Below are positions 1,295 to 7,893 of a DNA stretch of 53,658 bases, in pieces. Made by a program: the position numbers and the translations under genes. Within the stretch, counting starts at the first letter, position 1. Each line of letters opens with the position of its first letter. The notes under the pieces are model-generated. The model saw only the letters and a program-made list of their open reading frames with translations, made no database searches and was not told the origin of the DNA. Source of the DNA: Enorma phocaeensis (GTDB lineage: Bacteria > Actinomycetota > Coriobacteriia > Coriobacteriales > Coriobacteriaceae); assembly GCF_016901575.1 (NCBI RefSeq), contig NZ_JACJKQ010000016.1:1-53658 (forward strand), read 5' to 3'.

Positions 1295-3295
1295 GTGAAC
1301 ATCGCGCTCGCGCAGATCGATATGCGCCTTGGCGACATCGAGGGCATCTGCGCGCGGGTCGAGAGCCAGGCGGTACTCGCCAAGGAGAGAGGCGCCGACC
1401 TCTTGTGCGTTCCCGCGCCGCTGATGGCGGGAGTCGTGCCCGGAGGGCTCATCGAGGCGTCCAACTACGAGAACGACCTGGTGCGCAGCCTCGAGCGGCT
1501 GGCCGCCCGTCTGAAGGAGCTCGAGGTCGTGGCGCTCGTGCCCGCCGTGGTCTCCTATGGCGGAGCGCCGCTCTTCGAGGTGTTCGTGCTCGATCGCGGA
1601 CGGGCGGTCCCGGCGCGGACCATGCTGGCGCTTCGTCGCGAGCGGACCGGCGACGACCTTTGGGCGCCGCCGGTGTTCGACGTGGCGGGCGTGCGCGTCG
1701 CGGTGACCTTCGACGCCCTGCGCGACCTCGAGGAGCTGCCCCGAGGCTGCGACCTCATGGTGTACTTCCAGGCAAACGCCTTTGACGTTCACGACGAGGC
1801 GTCGAGCGCCGTGGCATCGGTTGCCGACGGGCATTTTCGTCGCGAGGTGGCGCGGGCGGGGCTTTGGCTTGCATGCATGGCGCCCGTGGGCGCCTTTGAC
1901 GACGCGGTGTACACCGGCGGATCGTTTGTGATGGACGACGCCGGGCGCGTGGTCGCCCAGGCCCCGTGCTTCGAGGAGTCCCTGCTCGTCCAAGAGGTGC
2001 GCCGCGGCATGCAGCTGCCCTGCATCGAGCAGCACGAGCTGCCGCAGTACCGGCGTGAGGAATGGCTGTGGGAGGCGCTCGTGATAGCGGTTCGCGACAC
2101 GGCGCTCGCCCGCGGGAGCCGTCGCGCGGCCCTGCTGCTCTCGGGAGACCTTCAGTCGTCGCTTGCGGCGGCGCTCTGCGTCGACGCGCTGGGGCCTCGT
2201 AACGTGGTGGGGCTTGTGGTCGAGCGCTCCGAGGTGTATACGCCGTCGCAGGAGGTCGCCGAGCGCGAGCGCATGGAACTCGTCCGCACCCTCGCGTCGA
2301 ACCTCAACATCCGCCTCGTCGAGCACGAGGCGCCCGAGGTCTCCGCCATCGTCGACCGCGTCCCCACGTTTGCCGAGGGCCCTCAGCTGCGCGAGCAGGC
2401 GGAGGGCATGCTCTTGCGCGACCTCGCGCGGATAGAGCACGCGGTGCCGGTGAGCTCCATCACGAAGACCGACGCCGCGCTTTCGGCTCCGGCCCTCGCG
2501 GCCTCGTTCCAGGGGGTGATGGCTCCCTTCGGCGACGTATACCTCTCGGCGCTCGAGTTCCTGGCGCGCATGCGCAACGGCGCCGGGACGGCGGTGCCCA
2601 CGCGTCTGGTGACATTGAACGCGGTGGAGCGCTCCCTCTCCGAGGCGCTTGCGCGCGCCATGCGCGACGACTGGGAGAAGACCGACTGGGCAGACCATAT
2701 CGCCCGGGTGCTGGCCAAGCTCGAGCCGAGCCAGGTCGACGGCATCCTCGAGGCGCACGTGGACCGAAACCTCCCGTTCGAGGAGCTTCCGACGATCGAC
2801 GCCAACCGCGAGGCGGCTGCCTTGCTGTTGGTTCTGGTGAGGCACGGCGAGTATGCGCGGCGCATGCTGCCCGAGTGCCCCATCGTCTCGGGCCGCTCGT
2901 TCTCCGAGCGCATGTGGCCCGCGTCGCTCGCGTGGTCCGACCTGGGGCGACACGGCGAGGAGCATCGCGGCGTCGCAGAGCTCGCGCGAGAGGAGCTCGA
3001 CCGGGCGGAGCAGCGGGGAGACGAGTACGGCGAGCGGGTCCGCGGAGAGGTCATGGGACTTATCGGCGGCTTGCTGGGCATCACGCCCGAGCAGCTCGAG
3101 CATCTGCAGTCCGAGGAGGGGCAGCGCAAGATTCGCGAGAACCTGCAGCGCTTCGAGGGACAGGTTCAGGAAGCGATCAGCCGCATGATCGAGAGCTCTT
3201 CCCAGGAGGGGCCCTCTGACGAGCACGTCGTCGGGCCCATGGGGCCCGGCCCTGTCCATCCGGACCGCAATTTCCCCTTTTTCTCGCAGAACTAG
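1295..3295 (+). CDS. NadE-like protein (nitrilase + NAD synthetase fold), catalytically degenerate
   Basis: This 666-residue protein has the layout of glutamine-dependent NAD+ synthetase: a nitrilase-like amidase domain (about 1-245) and a PP-loop NAD synthetase domain (about 265-550), then an acidic, glutamine-rich extension (about 560-666). Active-site positions are changed. The amidase Glu is Ala41 (context VPAPLMAG), the ICED cysteine region reads TFDA (Phe139), and the PP-loop SGGxDSS reads SGDLQSS at 283-289. The segment ITKTDAALS still resembles the NKTE region, so descent from NadE is clear. Activity as an NAD synthetase is unlikely; a scaffolding or regulatory role is a guess. GTG 1295 is preferred to GTG 1286 because AGGAAG ends at 1285. 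A true nadE should exist elsewhere. Confidence 0.75.
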   Translation: MNIALAQIDMRLGDIEGICARVESQAVLAKERGADLLCVPAPLMAGVVPGGLIEASNYENDLVRSLERLAARLKELEVVALVPAVVSYGGAPLFEVFVLDRGRAVPARTMLALRRERTGDDLWAPPVFDVAGVRVAVTFDALRDLEELPRGCDLMVYFQANAFDVHDEASSAVASVADGHFRREVARAGLWLACMAPVGAFDDAVYTGGSFVMDDAGRVVAQAPCFEESLLVQEVRRGMQLPCIEQHELPQYRREEWLWEALVIAVRDTALARGSRRAALLLSGDLQSSLAAALCVDALGPRNVVGLVVERSEVYTPSQEVAERERMELVRTLASNLNIRLVEHEAPEVSAIVDRVPTFAEGPQLREQAEGMLLRDLARIEHAVPVSSITKTDAALSAPALAASFQGVMAPFGDVYLSALEFLARMRNGAGTAVPTRLVTLNAVERSLSEALARAMRDDWEKTDWADHIARVLAKLEPSQVDGILEAHVDRNLPFEELPTIDANREAAALLLVLVRHGEYARRMLPECPIVSGRSFSERMWPASLAWSDLGRHGEEHRGVAELAREELDRAEQRGDEYGERVRGEVMGLIGGLLGITPEQLEHLQSEEGQRKIRENLQRFEGQVQEAISRMIESSSQEGPSDEHVVGPMGPGPVHPDRNFPFFSQN

Positions 3296-3316: not shown

Positions 3317-3335
3317 TATAGTAGAACAAGTGTTC
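3317..3335 (+). promoter_or_regulatory. ruvCAB promoter -10 and LexA (SOS) box
   Basis: TATAGT at 3317-3322 is a good -10, and GAAC-AAGT-GTTC at 3324-3335 follows at once. The latter matches the Gram-positive/actinobacterial LexA consensus GAAC-R-N-R-Y-GTTC at every fixed position. It lies 47 bases before the ruvC start, where bound LexA would block the transcription start. The -35 is weak. Confidence 0.75.
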
Positions 3336-3381
3336 GAATTGCGTGGAGGCCGCCGCGCCCTTGTGTGGAGGGAGGGCTAGC

Positions 3382-3906
3382 ATGATCATCTTGGGGCTCG
3401 ACCCCGGCTTGGCGAATACCGGCTGGGGCATTGTGGAGGAGCGTCGGGGAGACTGCCGCTGCCGGGCATACGGGTGCATCCACACCACCACCGACCAGGA
3501 GCTCGCCCCTCGCCTCCGTCATATCGTCGACGAGCTTGCCGAGGTCGCGCGCCGCTATCACCCCGATGCCGCAGCCATCGAGAGCATCTTCTTTGGCGCC
3601 AATACCCGCTCCGCCATACCGACGGCCCACGCCCGCGGCGCCGCCCTGGTCGCCTGCTCGCTCGCAGGGCTCGAAGTGGGGGAATATACGCCTATGCAGA
3701 TCAAGCAGGACGTGGTGGGCACCGGCGCGGCCGATAAGCGTCAGGTTATATATATGGTGCGAAACCTCTTGCGCCTCGATCACGATCCAAGGCCGGACCA
3801 TGCGGCAGACGCCCTCGCCTGCGCGATCTGCCATGCTCACCGCTGCGCCACGGCAGAGCTCACCCACGGTCGTTACGTACAAGAGAAAGGGAACCCCTAC
3901 TCATGA
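3382..3906 (+). CDS. ruvC: Holliday junction resolvase RuvC
   Basis: RuvC is a dimeric endonuclease that cuts Holliday junctions after RuvAB branch migration. The 174-residue product starts MIILGLDPGLANTGWG with catalytic Asp7. It has Glu67 in IESIFF, and a C-terminal DHAADAL segment (about 139-145) that supplies the last acidic/His residues. Length is normal for the family. The ATG at 3382 is chosen over an upstream GTG because GGAGGGAGGG lies just before it and the LDPG motif starts at residue 6. It overlaps ruvA by ATGA. The promoter carries an SOS box, so the operon is probably induced by DNA damage. Confidence 0.97.
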   Translation: MIILGLDPGLANTGWGIVEERRGDCRCRAYGCIHTTTDQELAPRLRHIVDELAEVARRYHPDAAAIESIFFGANTRSAIPTAHARGAALVACSLAGLEVGEYTPMQIKQDVVGTGAADKRQVIYMVRNLLRLDHDPRPDHAADALACAICHAHRCATAELTHGRYVQEKGNPYS

Positions 3907-6345: not shown

Positions 6346-7893
6346 ATGGCTTGCACCACTATATTGATTGGCAAGGCGGCGAGCTACGACGGCTCGACCA
6401 TCATCGCGCGCAACGAGGACTCGCCGAACGGGCAGTTCGAGCCCAAGCGCATGCATGTGGTGAGCCGCGACGAGCAGCCCCGCGTCTACAAGAGCGTCGA
6501 GTCTCATCTCACCATCGAGCTGCCTGACAGCCCCATGCGCTACACCTCGGTGCCCGACGCCTTGCCCGGCCACGGCGTGTGGGCGGCGGCGGGTTTCAAC
6601 GAGGCCAACGTCGCCATGACCGCTACCGAGACCATCACGTCGAACGAGCGCGTGCTCGGCGCGGACCCGCTCGTGGCATACCGGCCCGCCGTCGGCGTCG
6701 AGGGCGAAGACGGCTATCTCCCCGAGGTGCCCGGCGGCATAGGCGAGGAGGACATGGTGACCCTCGTCTTGCCGTACATCGCCAGCGCTCGCGACGGCGT
6801 GCGTCGCCTGGGCGAACTGCTCGAGCGGTTTGGCACCTACGAGATGAACGGCATCGCATTTTCCGATGTTGACGAGATCTGGTGGCTTGAGACCGTGGGC
6901 GGCCACCACTGGATCGCCAAGCGCGTGCCCGATGACGCCTATGTCACGATGCCCAACCAGCTCGGTATCGACTCGTTTGACCTTGCGGACGCCGAGGGAG
7001 AGCAGCGAGAGCACATGGCGAGCGCGGACCTTCGCGCATGGATGGCCGAGAACCACCTGGATCTCACCCTCTCTTCGTCGCAGGTCGGCTTCTCGGCGAA
7101 AGGGGCGTCCGAGGGGTCTTCGGTCTTCAACCCGCGCGACGCGTTTGGCTCGCACAGCGATTCCGACCACGTCTACAACACGCCCCGTGCGTGGTATATG
7201 CAGCGCTGCCTAAACCCGAGCGACCGCTGGGACGGACCCGCCGCCCCGCTGCGTCCGGAGTCCGACAACATTCCCTGGTCGCGCACGCCCGAGCGCAAGC
7301 TCACCATCGAGGACGTGAAATACGTGCTCTCCGCCCATTTCCAAGGCACGCCGTACGACCCGTATGGAAAGGCCGGCACCGACGCCACCCGCGCCATGTA
7401 TCGACCCATCGGCATCAATCGCAACGGCCAGCTTGCCGTCCTGCAGATTCGCCCGTATCGCCCCGAGGCATCGCGCACGGTTCAATGGATGGCGTTCGGC
7501 TCCAACCCGTTCAACGCGCTCGTCCCCTTCTATGGCAACGTCGACGCGGCGCCCGAGTATCTGGCCAACACCACCGCGCGCGTGACCACCGAGAGCTTCT
7601 ACTGGGCAAACCGCGTGATCGCCGCCCTCGCAGACGCCCGCTTCCATGAGAACTCGGCGGCGGTCGAGCGCTATCAGGAGAAGGTCGGCTCGCTTGGCCA
7701 CCAGATGCTCCGCGAGACCGACGCCGAGGTGGCAGGTCTTCCCGCCGCGGAGGTCCCCGCTGTGCTCGAGCAGGCAAACGACCGCATGGCGGCGGACCTC
7801 AAGCGCGAGACCGAGGACCTGCTGGGGCGCGTGCTCTACACCACGAGCTGCGCCATGAAGAACGGCTTCGCGATGTCGGACAACGAGCGCTAG
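6346..7893 (+). CDS. C69-family dipeptidase
   Basis: This 515-residue N-terminal nucleophile hydrolase cleaves dipeptides. The start MACTTILIGKAASYDGSTII places the nucleophilic Cys at position 3, and the ARNEDS motif that follows is diagnostic of family C69 (PepD-like). Conserved later segments include AAGFNEANVAMTATETI, WWLETVGGHHWIAKRVPDD and SRTVQWMAFG. No signal peptide is visible, so it should act in the cytoplasm on imported peptides. The ATG follows CAGGGAGGAACTCC. It appears to be a single-gene unit ending in a GC-rich hairpin at 7902-7927. Confidence 0.93.
   Translation: MACTTILIGKAASYDGSTIIARNEDSPNGQFEPKRMHVVSRDEQPRVYKSVESHLTIELPDSPMRYTSVPDALPGHGVWAAAGFNEANVAMTATETITSNERVLGADPLVAYRPAVGVEGEDGYLPEVPGGIGEEDMVTLVLPYIASARDGVRRLGELLERFGTYEMNGIAFSDVDEIWWLETVGGHHWIAKRVPDDAYVTMPNQLGIDSFDLADAEGEQREHMASADLRAWMAENHLDLTLSSSQVGFSAKGASEGSSVFNPRDAFGSHSDSDHVYNTPRAWYMQRCLNPSDRWDGPAAPLRPESDNIPWSRTPERKLTIEDVKYVLSAHFQGTPYDPYGKAGTDATRAMYRPIGINRNGQLAVLQIRPYRPEASRTVQWMAFGSNPFNALVPFYGNVDAAPEYLANTTARVTTESFYWANRVIAALADARFHENSAAVERYQEKVGSLGHQMLRETDAEVAGLPAAEVPAVLEQANDRMAADLKRETEDLLGRVLYTTSCAMKNGFAMSDNER

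Follow-up and report, generated by a model that had tools for sequence, protein, structure and literature searches.

The gene at positions 1295–3295 of a stretch of Enorma phocaeensis DNA encodes an intact two-domain homologue of NAD synthetase (NadE) from which the glutaminase triad and the PP-loop have been lost. As judged from alignments and structural models, the protein appears to be a conserved pseudoenzyme that retained its fold without its catalytic residues, and its last four residues, F-S-x-N-COOH, were the same in every full-length copy collected. Conserved pseudoenzymes as such are already known; what is new is a conserved NadE pseudoenzyme with an invariant FSxN end. No description of the NadE pseudoenzyme, of the NadE-ruvC neighbourhood or of the FSxN motif was found in the open-access literature.

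The window, meaning the whole stretch of DNA that was analysed, is 53,658 nucleotides long (contig NZ_JACJKQ010000016.1), and all of its features described here lie on the forward strand. The frame of the NadE-like gene is open over 666 codons, as the original prediction had it. A GTG at 1286 is an alternative start giving 669 residues; it overlaps the likely ribosome-binding site AGGAAGG (1280–1286, inferred from its spacing of 8 nt to the GTG at 1295), and the start at 1295 is therefore to be preferred. The desulfoferrodoxin gene dfx (761–1123; Pfam PF01880, E = 7.5e-19) is the upstream neighbour in most genomes and is separated from GTG 1295 in the window by 171 bp. Between the two genes a terminator-like hairpin, GGGGTCGCC-TTCG-GGCGGCCCC-TTTT (1240–1267), was read by eye; it was not among the results of a pattern scan. 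Downstream, ruvC (3379–3906, frame from 3379 with an ATG at 3382; Pfam RuvC) is the start of the ruvCAB unit. At the very beginning of the window, positions 3–20 translate as MCIRDR, a string familiar from sequencing-adapter artefacts at contig ends.

NadE fold and loss of the active sites

Two Pfam domains were recognised in the protein, CN_hydrolase (31.6 bits) and NAD_synthase (26.2 bits), both weak but above their cut-offs. The NCBIfam equivalog for NadE, PRK13981/NF010588, matched from end to end (residues 3–545 of the 669-residue form) with 124 bits, about a quarter of the equivalog cut-off of 479 bits. Sequence matches in the PDB were exclusively NAD synthetases. The AlphaFold2 model, based on an alignment of 54 sequences, displayed a confident two-domain NadE fold (mean pLDDT 88.3) and matched the Streptomyces avermitilis NadE 3n05 (Foldseek E = 2.7e-31; VIA-align Z = 32.0 and rmsd 2.8 Å over 480 residues). 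The dead glutaminase (nitrilase-like) domain covers approximately residues 1–240 (1295–2014) and the dead synthetase domain residues 241–551 (2015–2947), the fold match extending up to residue 551.

The active sites were aligned with those of 16 related two-domain NadEs, of which 15 had a complete set of catalytic residues. In the catalytic columns the window protein had Glu replaced by Ala, Lys by Met and Cys by Asp or Phe. The letters given in the original prediction were thus right, with Ala41 for the amidase Glu and Phe139 (in VTFDAL) for the Cys, and the loss of the catalytic Lys, which it did not name, is to be added. Its reading of the PP-loop as SGDLQSS (residues 283–289, 2141–2161), in place of the canonical SGGxDS, was likewise correct. 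Catalytic residues at shifted positions, which would have spoken against the original prediction, were not seen in the alignments with the 16 related NadEs, and this possibility was rejected.

The same losses were found throughout a set of 42 aligned pseudoenzymes, comprising the window protein, 20 further sequences from Coriobacteriaceae and 21 from a sister family, presumably Atopobiaceae. Glutaminase Glu, Lys and Cys as well as the PP-loop were absent from all 42. The residues replacing the catalytic Cys varied (D, T, S, G, Q), and the PP-loops of the relatives were of the types EGDLPSS or DGxLxSx; the second Gly and the catalytic Asp of the loop were also gone. The PP-loop Ser was Asp or Glu in 31 of the 42, mostly Glu or Asp in Coriobacteriaceae (16/21) and mostly Asp in the sister family (15/21). 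When 81 pseudoenzymes were compared with the 15 active relatives, 21 of the 168 columns invariant in the latter were kept at a level of at least 90%, and 81 columns at less than 10%. Some core positions remained invariant or nearly so (Q10, G202, G211, S213, K394, P414 and D417 in the 669-residue numbering), so that some residual pocket function in the dead core is conceivable.

Distribution, phylogeny and selection

The family of the window protein was identified as Coriobacteriaceae because the nearest genome was Collinsella sp. An2, the sole match in a scan of genome contigs with the single protein that catches close relatives only. The pseudoenzyme was present in all 25 sampled genomes of this family. 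In the sister family it was found in 22 of 23 genomes of a first sample and in 115 of 121 genomes of a second (91/92 among those of good quality). In the phylogenetic tree, the pseudoenzymes formed one clade with two subclades that followed the two families with full support (100/100), and the loss of the active sites is therefore most simply placed once, before the family split, and inherited thereafter. The decay is thus old, common to both families and maintained. Divergence was fast, with approximately 30% identity or below between the families. The dN/dS of the gene ranged from 0.03 to 0.37 in 13 pairs, always below 1 and mostly above that of ruvB; the pseudoenzyme is under purifying selection. 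These values, the near-universal occurrence of the paralogue in two families of the Coriobacteriia and the canonical NadE found elsewhere bear out the original prediction that the fold was kept under selection after catalysis was lost.

A NadE with only one dead site was encountered in a third family of the order. In genome G144 the glutaminase of a two-domain NadE of 528 residues (locus L066, 3995–5578, reverse strand) is dead while its synthetase is intact, and the same genome encodes a second, long NadE. Like the pseudoenzymes the 528-residue protein has lost the glutaminase residues and has a similar W-P-x-x-x-x-W-x-D stretch at the end of the core, and in the tree it branches between these and the active NadEs. 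Unlike them, it has an intact PP-loop (SGGIDSA) and TSNKSE motif and neither a tail nor an FSxN end. It is plausibly an intermediate stage of the decay, possibly an ammonia-dependent one.

In the E. phocaeensis genome (G000), a second guaA-like frame was noticed near 6444–6608 of contig 24 (locus L004); it has the ATP-pyrophosphatase part, with an intact PP-loop (LSGGVDSS), and lacks the amidotransferase domain. The full guaA of this genome is on contig 88.

The acidic tail and its invariant end

Active relatives end at about the end of the NadE core, and the pseudoenzymes mostly extend approximately 75–120 residues further. The acidic C-terminal extension described in the original prediction is real, with about 118 residues and a net charge of −11 in the window protein; tails in general carried about −9. 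In the window model the tail was helical from residue 560 to 635 (helices 560–593, 598–605 and 607–635; 2972–3199) and disordered from 637 to 666 (pLDDT <50), the linker of residues 637–662 occupying 3203–3280. The tail was of low confidence also in the AlphaFold2 model of a protein from the sister family. Docking of the tail onto the core was not seen in these monomer models, one for each family.

The last four residues, which had been missed in the original prediction, were F-S-x-N-COOH in 82 of 82 full-length copies, each from its own genome; in the window they are FSQN, encoded by TTC TCG CAG AAC (3281–3292). The tails of the two families had no common sequence except this end. Entropy along the tail was 0 at positions −4, −3 and −1, about 2 bits at −5 and −6, and about 3–3.6 bits at most others. 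The codons of the motif varied (TTC/TTT, TCG/TCC/TCT/TCA/AGC and AAC/AAT), with both serine codon boxes in use, and selection therefore acts on the protein and not on the DNA. FSxN was also kept where the gene was inverted, separated from ruvC by a stretch of approximately 2.2 kb or by 12 kb, placed behind dnaE, or grown to more than 1000 codons. The last case is a very divergent open frame in genome G161 (L180), ending 46 bp upstream of ruvC, whose Asp-rich tail of several hundred residues still ends in NPFSIN. In one copy (L181) the frame is broken near an ambiguous base, and FSDN can be read just downstream in another frame.

FSxN was absent from the active NadEs. A pattern search of five genomes, restricted to TCN serine codons and to L, P, F or S before the Phe, detected it as the terminus of this gene alone among long ORFs; further hits were not ends of long ORFs where they were checked. 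Two candidate explanations of the motif were rejected. A DNA element in front of ruvC, with conservation of the motif as its side effect, is incompatible with the variable synonymous codons and with the persistence of the motif after relocation, and a beta-clamp motif, suggested by QGLF in some tails, is at variance with the lack of conservation of the Gln. FSxN could also be a signal for processing or for degradation, or a site of modification.

Proposed function

On balance, the pseudoenzyme is probably a non-catalytic scaffold of NadE fold that presents a C-terminal docking peptide. Its history may be depicted as follows: In the common ancestor of the two families, in which NAD is made by a different, longer NadE, a glutamine-dependent NAD synthetase would have become redundant. 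The redundant enzyme would have lost both active sites, retained the two-domain fold in the role of a scaffold and been inherited vertically. This scaffold would carry a variable acidic tail with FSxN at its tip as a conserved docking peptide, and, the core being probably oligomeric as in NadE, several flexible tails would be displayed together in a multivalent manner. The tips would then bind a partner protein via the last four residues and, presumably, their free carboxylate. A bolder version, conceivable though we lean against it, is that the end of the dead NAD synthetase is read by an undescribed receptor present in both families, making the protein a lineage-wide hub and FSxN-COOH a new bacterial C-terminal recognition code; the receptor might have its place in replication, in repair or in the oxidative-stress response.

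The tip might instead serve within the protein or its oligomer, as a latch by which the terminal Asn docks in the dead glutaminase pocket of a neighbour, stabilising the oligomer or closing the pocket. With its free carboxylate and side-chain amide, such an Asn would resemble the glutamine amide that the ancestral pocket took as its substrate, and the glutaminase fold persists with G202, G211 and S213 invariant. We regard this as unlikely, however, given the undocked, low-pLDDT tail in the monomer models and the variable residues at the position of the catalytic Cys.

The active NadE

Absence of any other nadE from the genome would have spoken against the original prediction. An intact NadE of 707 residues, with E61, K130, C187 and SGGLDST, was found on contig 15 of the E. 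phocaeensis genome, and an intact NadE of the same long type in 20 further genomes of the two families that were read individually; the pseudoenzyme as sole nadE was accordingly rejected. Elsewhere in the class, relatives have a canonical PRK13981-type NadE scoring above the equivalog cut-off.

Dead paralogues are often regulators of live ones. The pseudoenzyme might thus regulate the active NadE, either in mixed oligomers with it or by titrating away a regulator of NadE, of the PII type or another, and an intact NadE is indeed at hand in these 21 genomes. NadE is under the control of PII signalling in other bacteria, according to one report (PMC7196632). We nevertheless find such regulation improbable: the two genes are unlinked, and mixed oligomers are not expected with an active NadE that belongs to another, long type and is set apart in the tree by a very long branch (2.31 changes per site).

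The ruvCAB neighbourhood

The usual gene order was dfx, the NadE-like gene and ruvC-ruvA-ruvB, with dnaE before dfx or directly upstream of the NadE-like gene in several genomes of the sister family. The position before ruvC noted in the original prediction held in most genomes, and did not in some of the sister family, in which the gene was inverted, 2–12 kb away or on another contig. In three of these genomes the NadE-like gene, preceded by dfx, and ruvCAB were divergent, dfx staying with the NadE-like gene and not with ruvC. Six genomes of the genus g96 (L173–L177 and L183) had approximately 2.2 kb between the NadE-like gene and ruvC, and in another the two were 12 kb apart. In genome G096 the NadE-like gene was located just downstream of dnaE, on a contig other than that of ruvC. 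The 2.2-kb stretch of L173 contained an ORF of 669 residues with a probable membrane segment.

In each of the 42 loci in the first set in which the NadE-like gene adjoins ruvC, the window included, the sequence separating the two genes contained a perfect LexA-type box (GAACN4GTTC; GAACAAGTGTTC at 3324–3335 in the window), located at −18 to −69 relative to the start of ruvC. Upstream of the NadE-like gene itself, none of these loci had an exact box in a range of approximately 250 bp. Given the box's position, an SOS promoter separate from that of the NadE-like gene is very likely for ruvCAB, and SOS co-regulation of the NadE-like gene as the default was rejected.

Together with the rearranged genomes that part the gene from ruvCAB, this also weakens the link to DNA repair that had been drawn from position, by which the pseudoenzyme would be a RuvCAB/SOS accessory acting as an adaptor in the processing of Holliday junctions or the restart of replication. 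Such a role could find support in the fact that ruvC adjoins the gene in the majority of genomes in the two families, in the dnaE neighbour of several sister-family genomes, and in the closed sister-family genome G054, which is without ruvC, a true RuvB (the sole trace is a weak match with 35% identity that is probably RarA) and the NadE-like gene alike; the remaining genomes of this family without ruvC were incomplete. One deletion can explain the co-loss in G054, however, dfx follows the gene when it is inverted, and direct binding of DNA is unlikely for so strongly acidic a protein. We consider the chances of a RuvCAB accessory slim.

Nucleotide sensing and pseudogene decay as unlikely readings

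Sensing of NAD, AMP or ATP by a protein that kept binding without catalysis, another suggestion of the original prediction, is very unlikely and ranks last among the functional options. The NadE-inherited residues K394, P414, D417 and R430 are nearly invariant, as a sensor would have them, but the PP-loop is degraded, and the acidic residue that mostly replaces its phosphate-binding Ser is expected to repel phosphates. That the gene is a decaying pseudogene without function, as the fast divergence between families and the rare broken copy L181 might suggest, is refuted almost beyond doubt by the open frames, the dN/dS well below 1, the near-universal presence and the invariant C-terminus.

Comparison with known systems

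It is unusual for a bacterial pseudoenzyme to be retained throughout entire families. The present one occurs almost universally in two of them, among whose members are common gut genera such as Collinsella. Since both Pfam domains score above cut-off, annotation pipelines are prone to label it NAD synthase, by which metabolic models would be misled. With the invariant FSxN end, the question of the role of a dead NadE is sharpened into that of which protein binds a four-residue tip.

With NadEs of the PRK13981/NF010588 type (3n05, 5kha, 4f4h) the pseudoenzyme has the two-domain architecture and the fold in common; it differs from them in the loss of all catalytic residues, in reaching about a quarter of the cut-off score and in the tail of approximately 75–120 residues with FSxN. 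The long-type, Mycobacterium tuberculosis-like NadE that is the active enzyme here belongs to the same fold class (3dla and 6ofc were among the matches), but is catalytically intact, has another C-terminus, is encoded by an unlinked gene and is located on a distant branch. In design there is a likeness to SSB, in which a folded core is followed by a disordered acidic linker and a short invariant C-terminal tip of the DDDIPF type, and to similar docking peptides. The sequences are unrelated, DDDIPF-type in the one and FSxN in the other, and the core is an OB fold in SSB and a NadE fold in the pseudoenzyme; the arrangement of an acidic disordered linker with an invariant C-terminal peptide is found in both.
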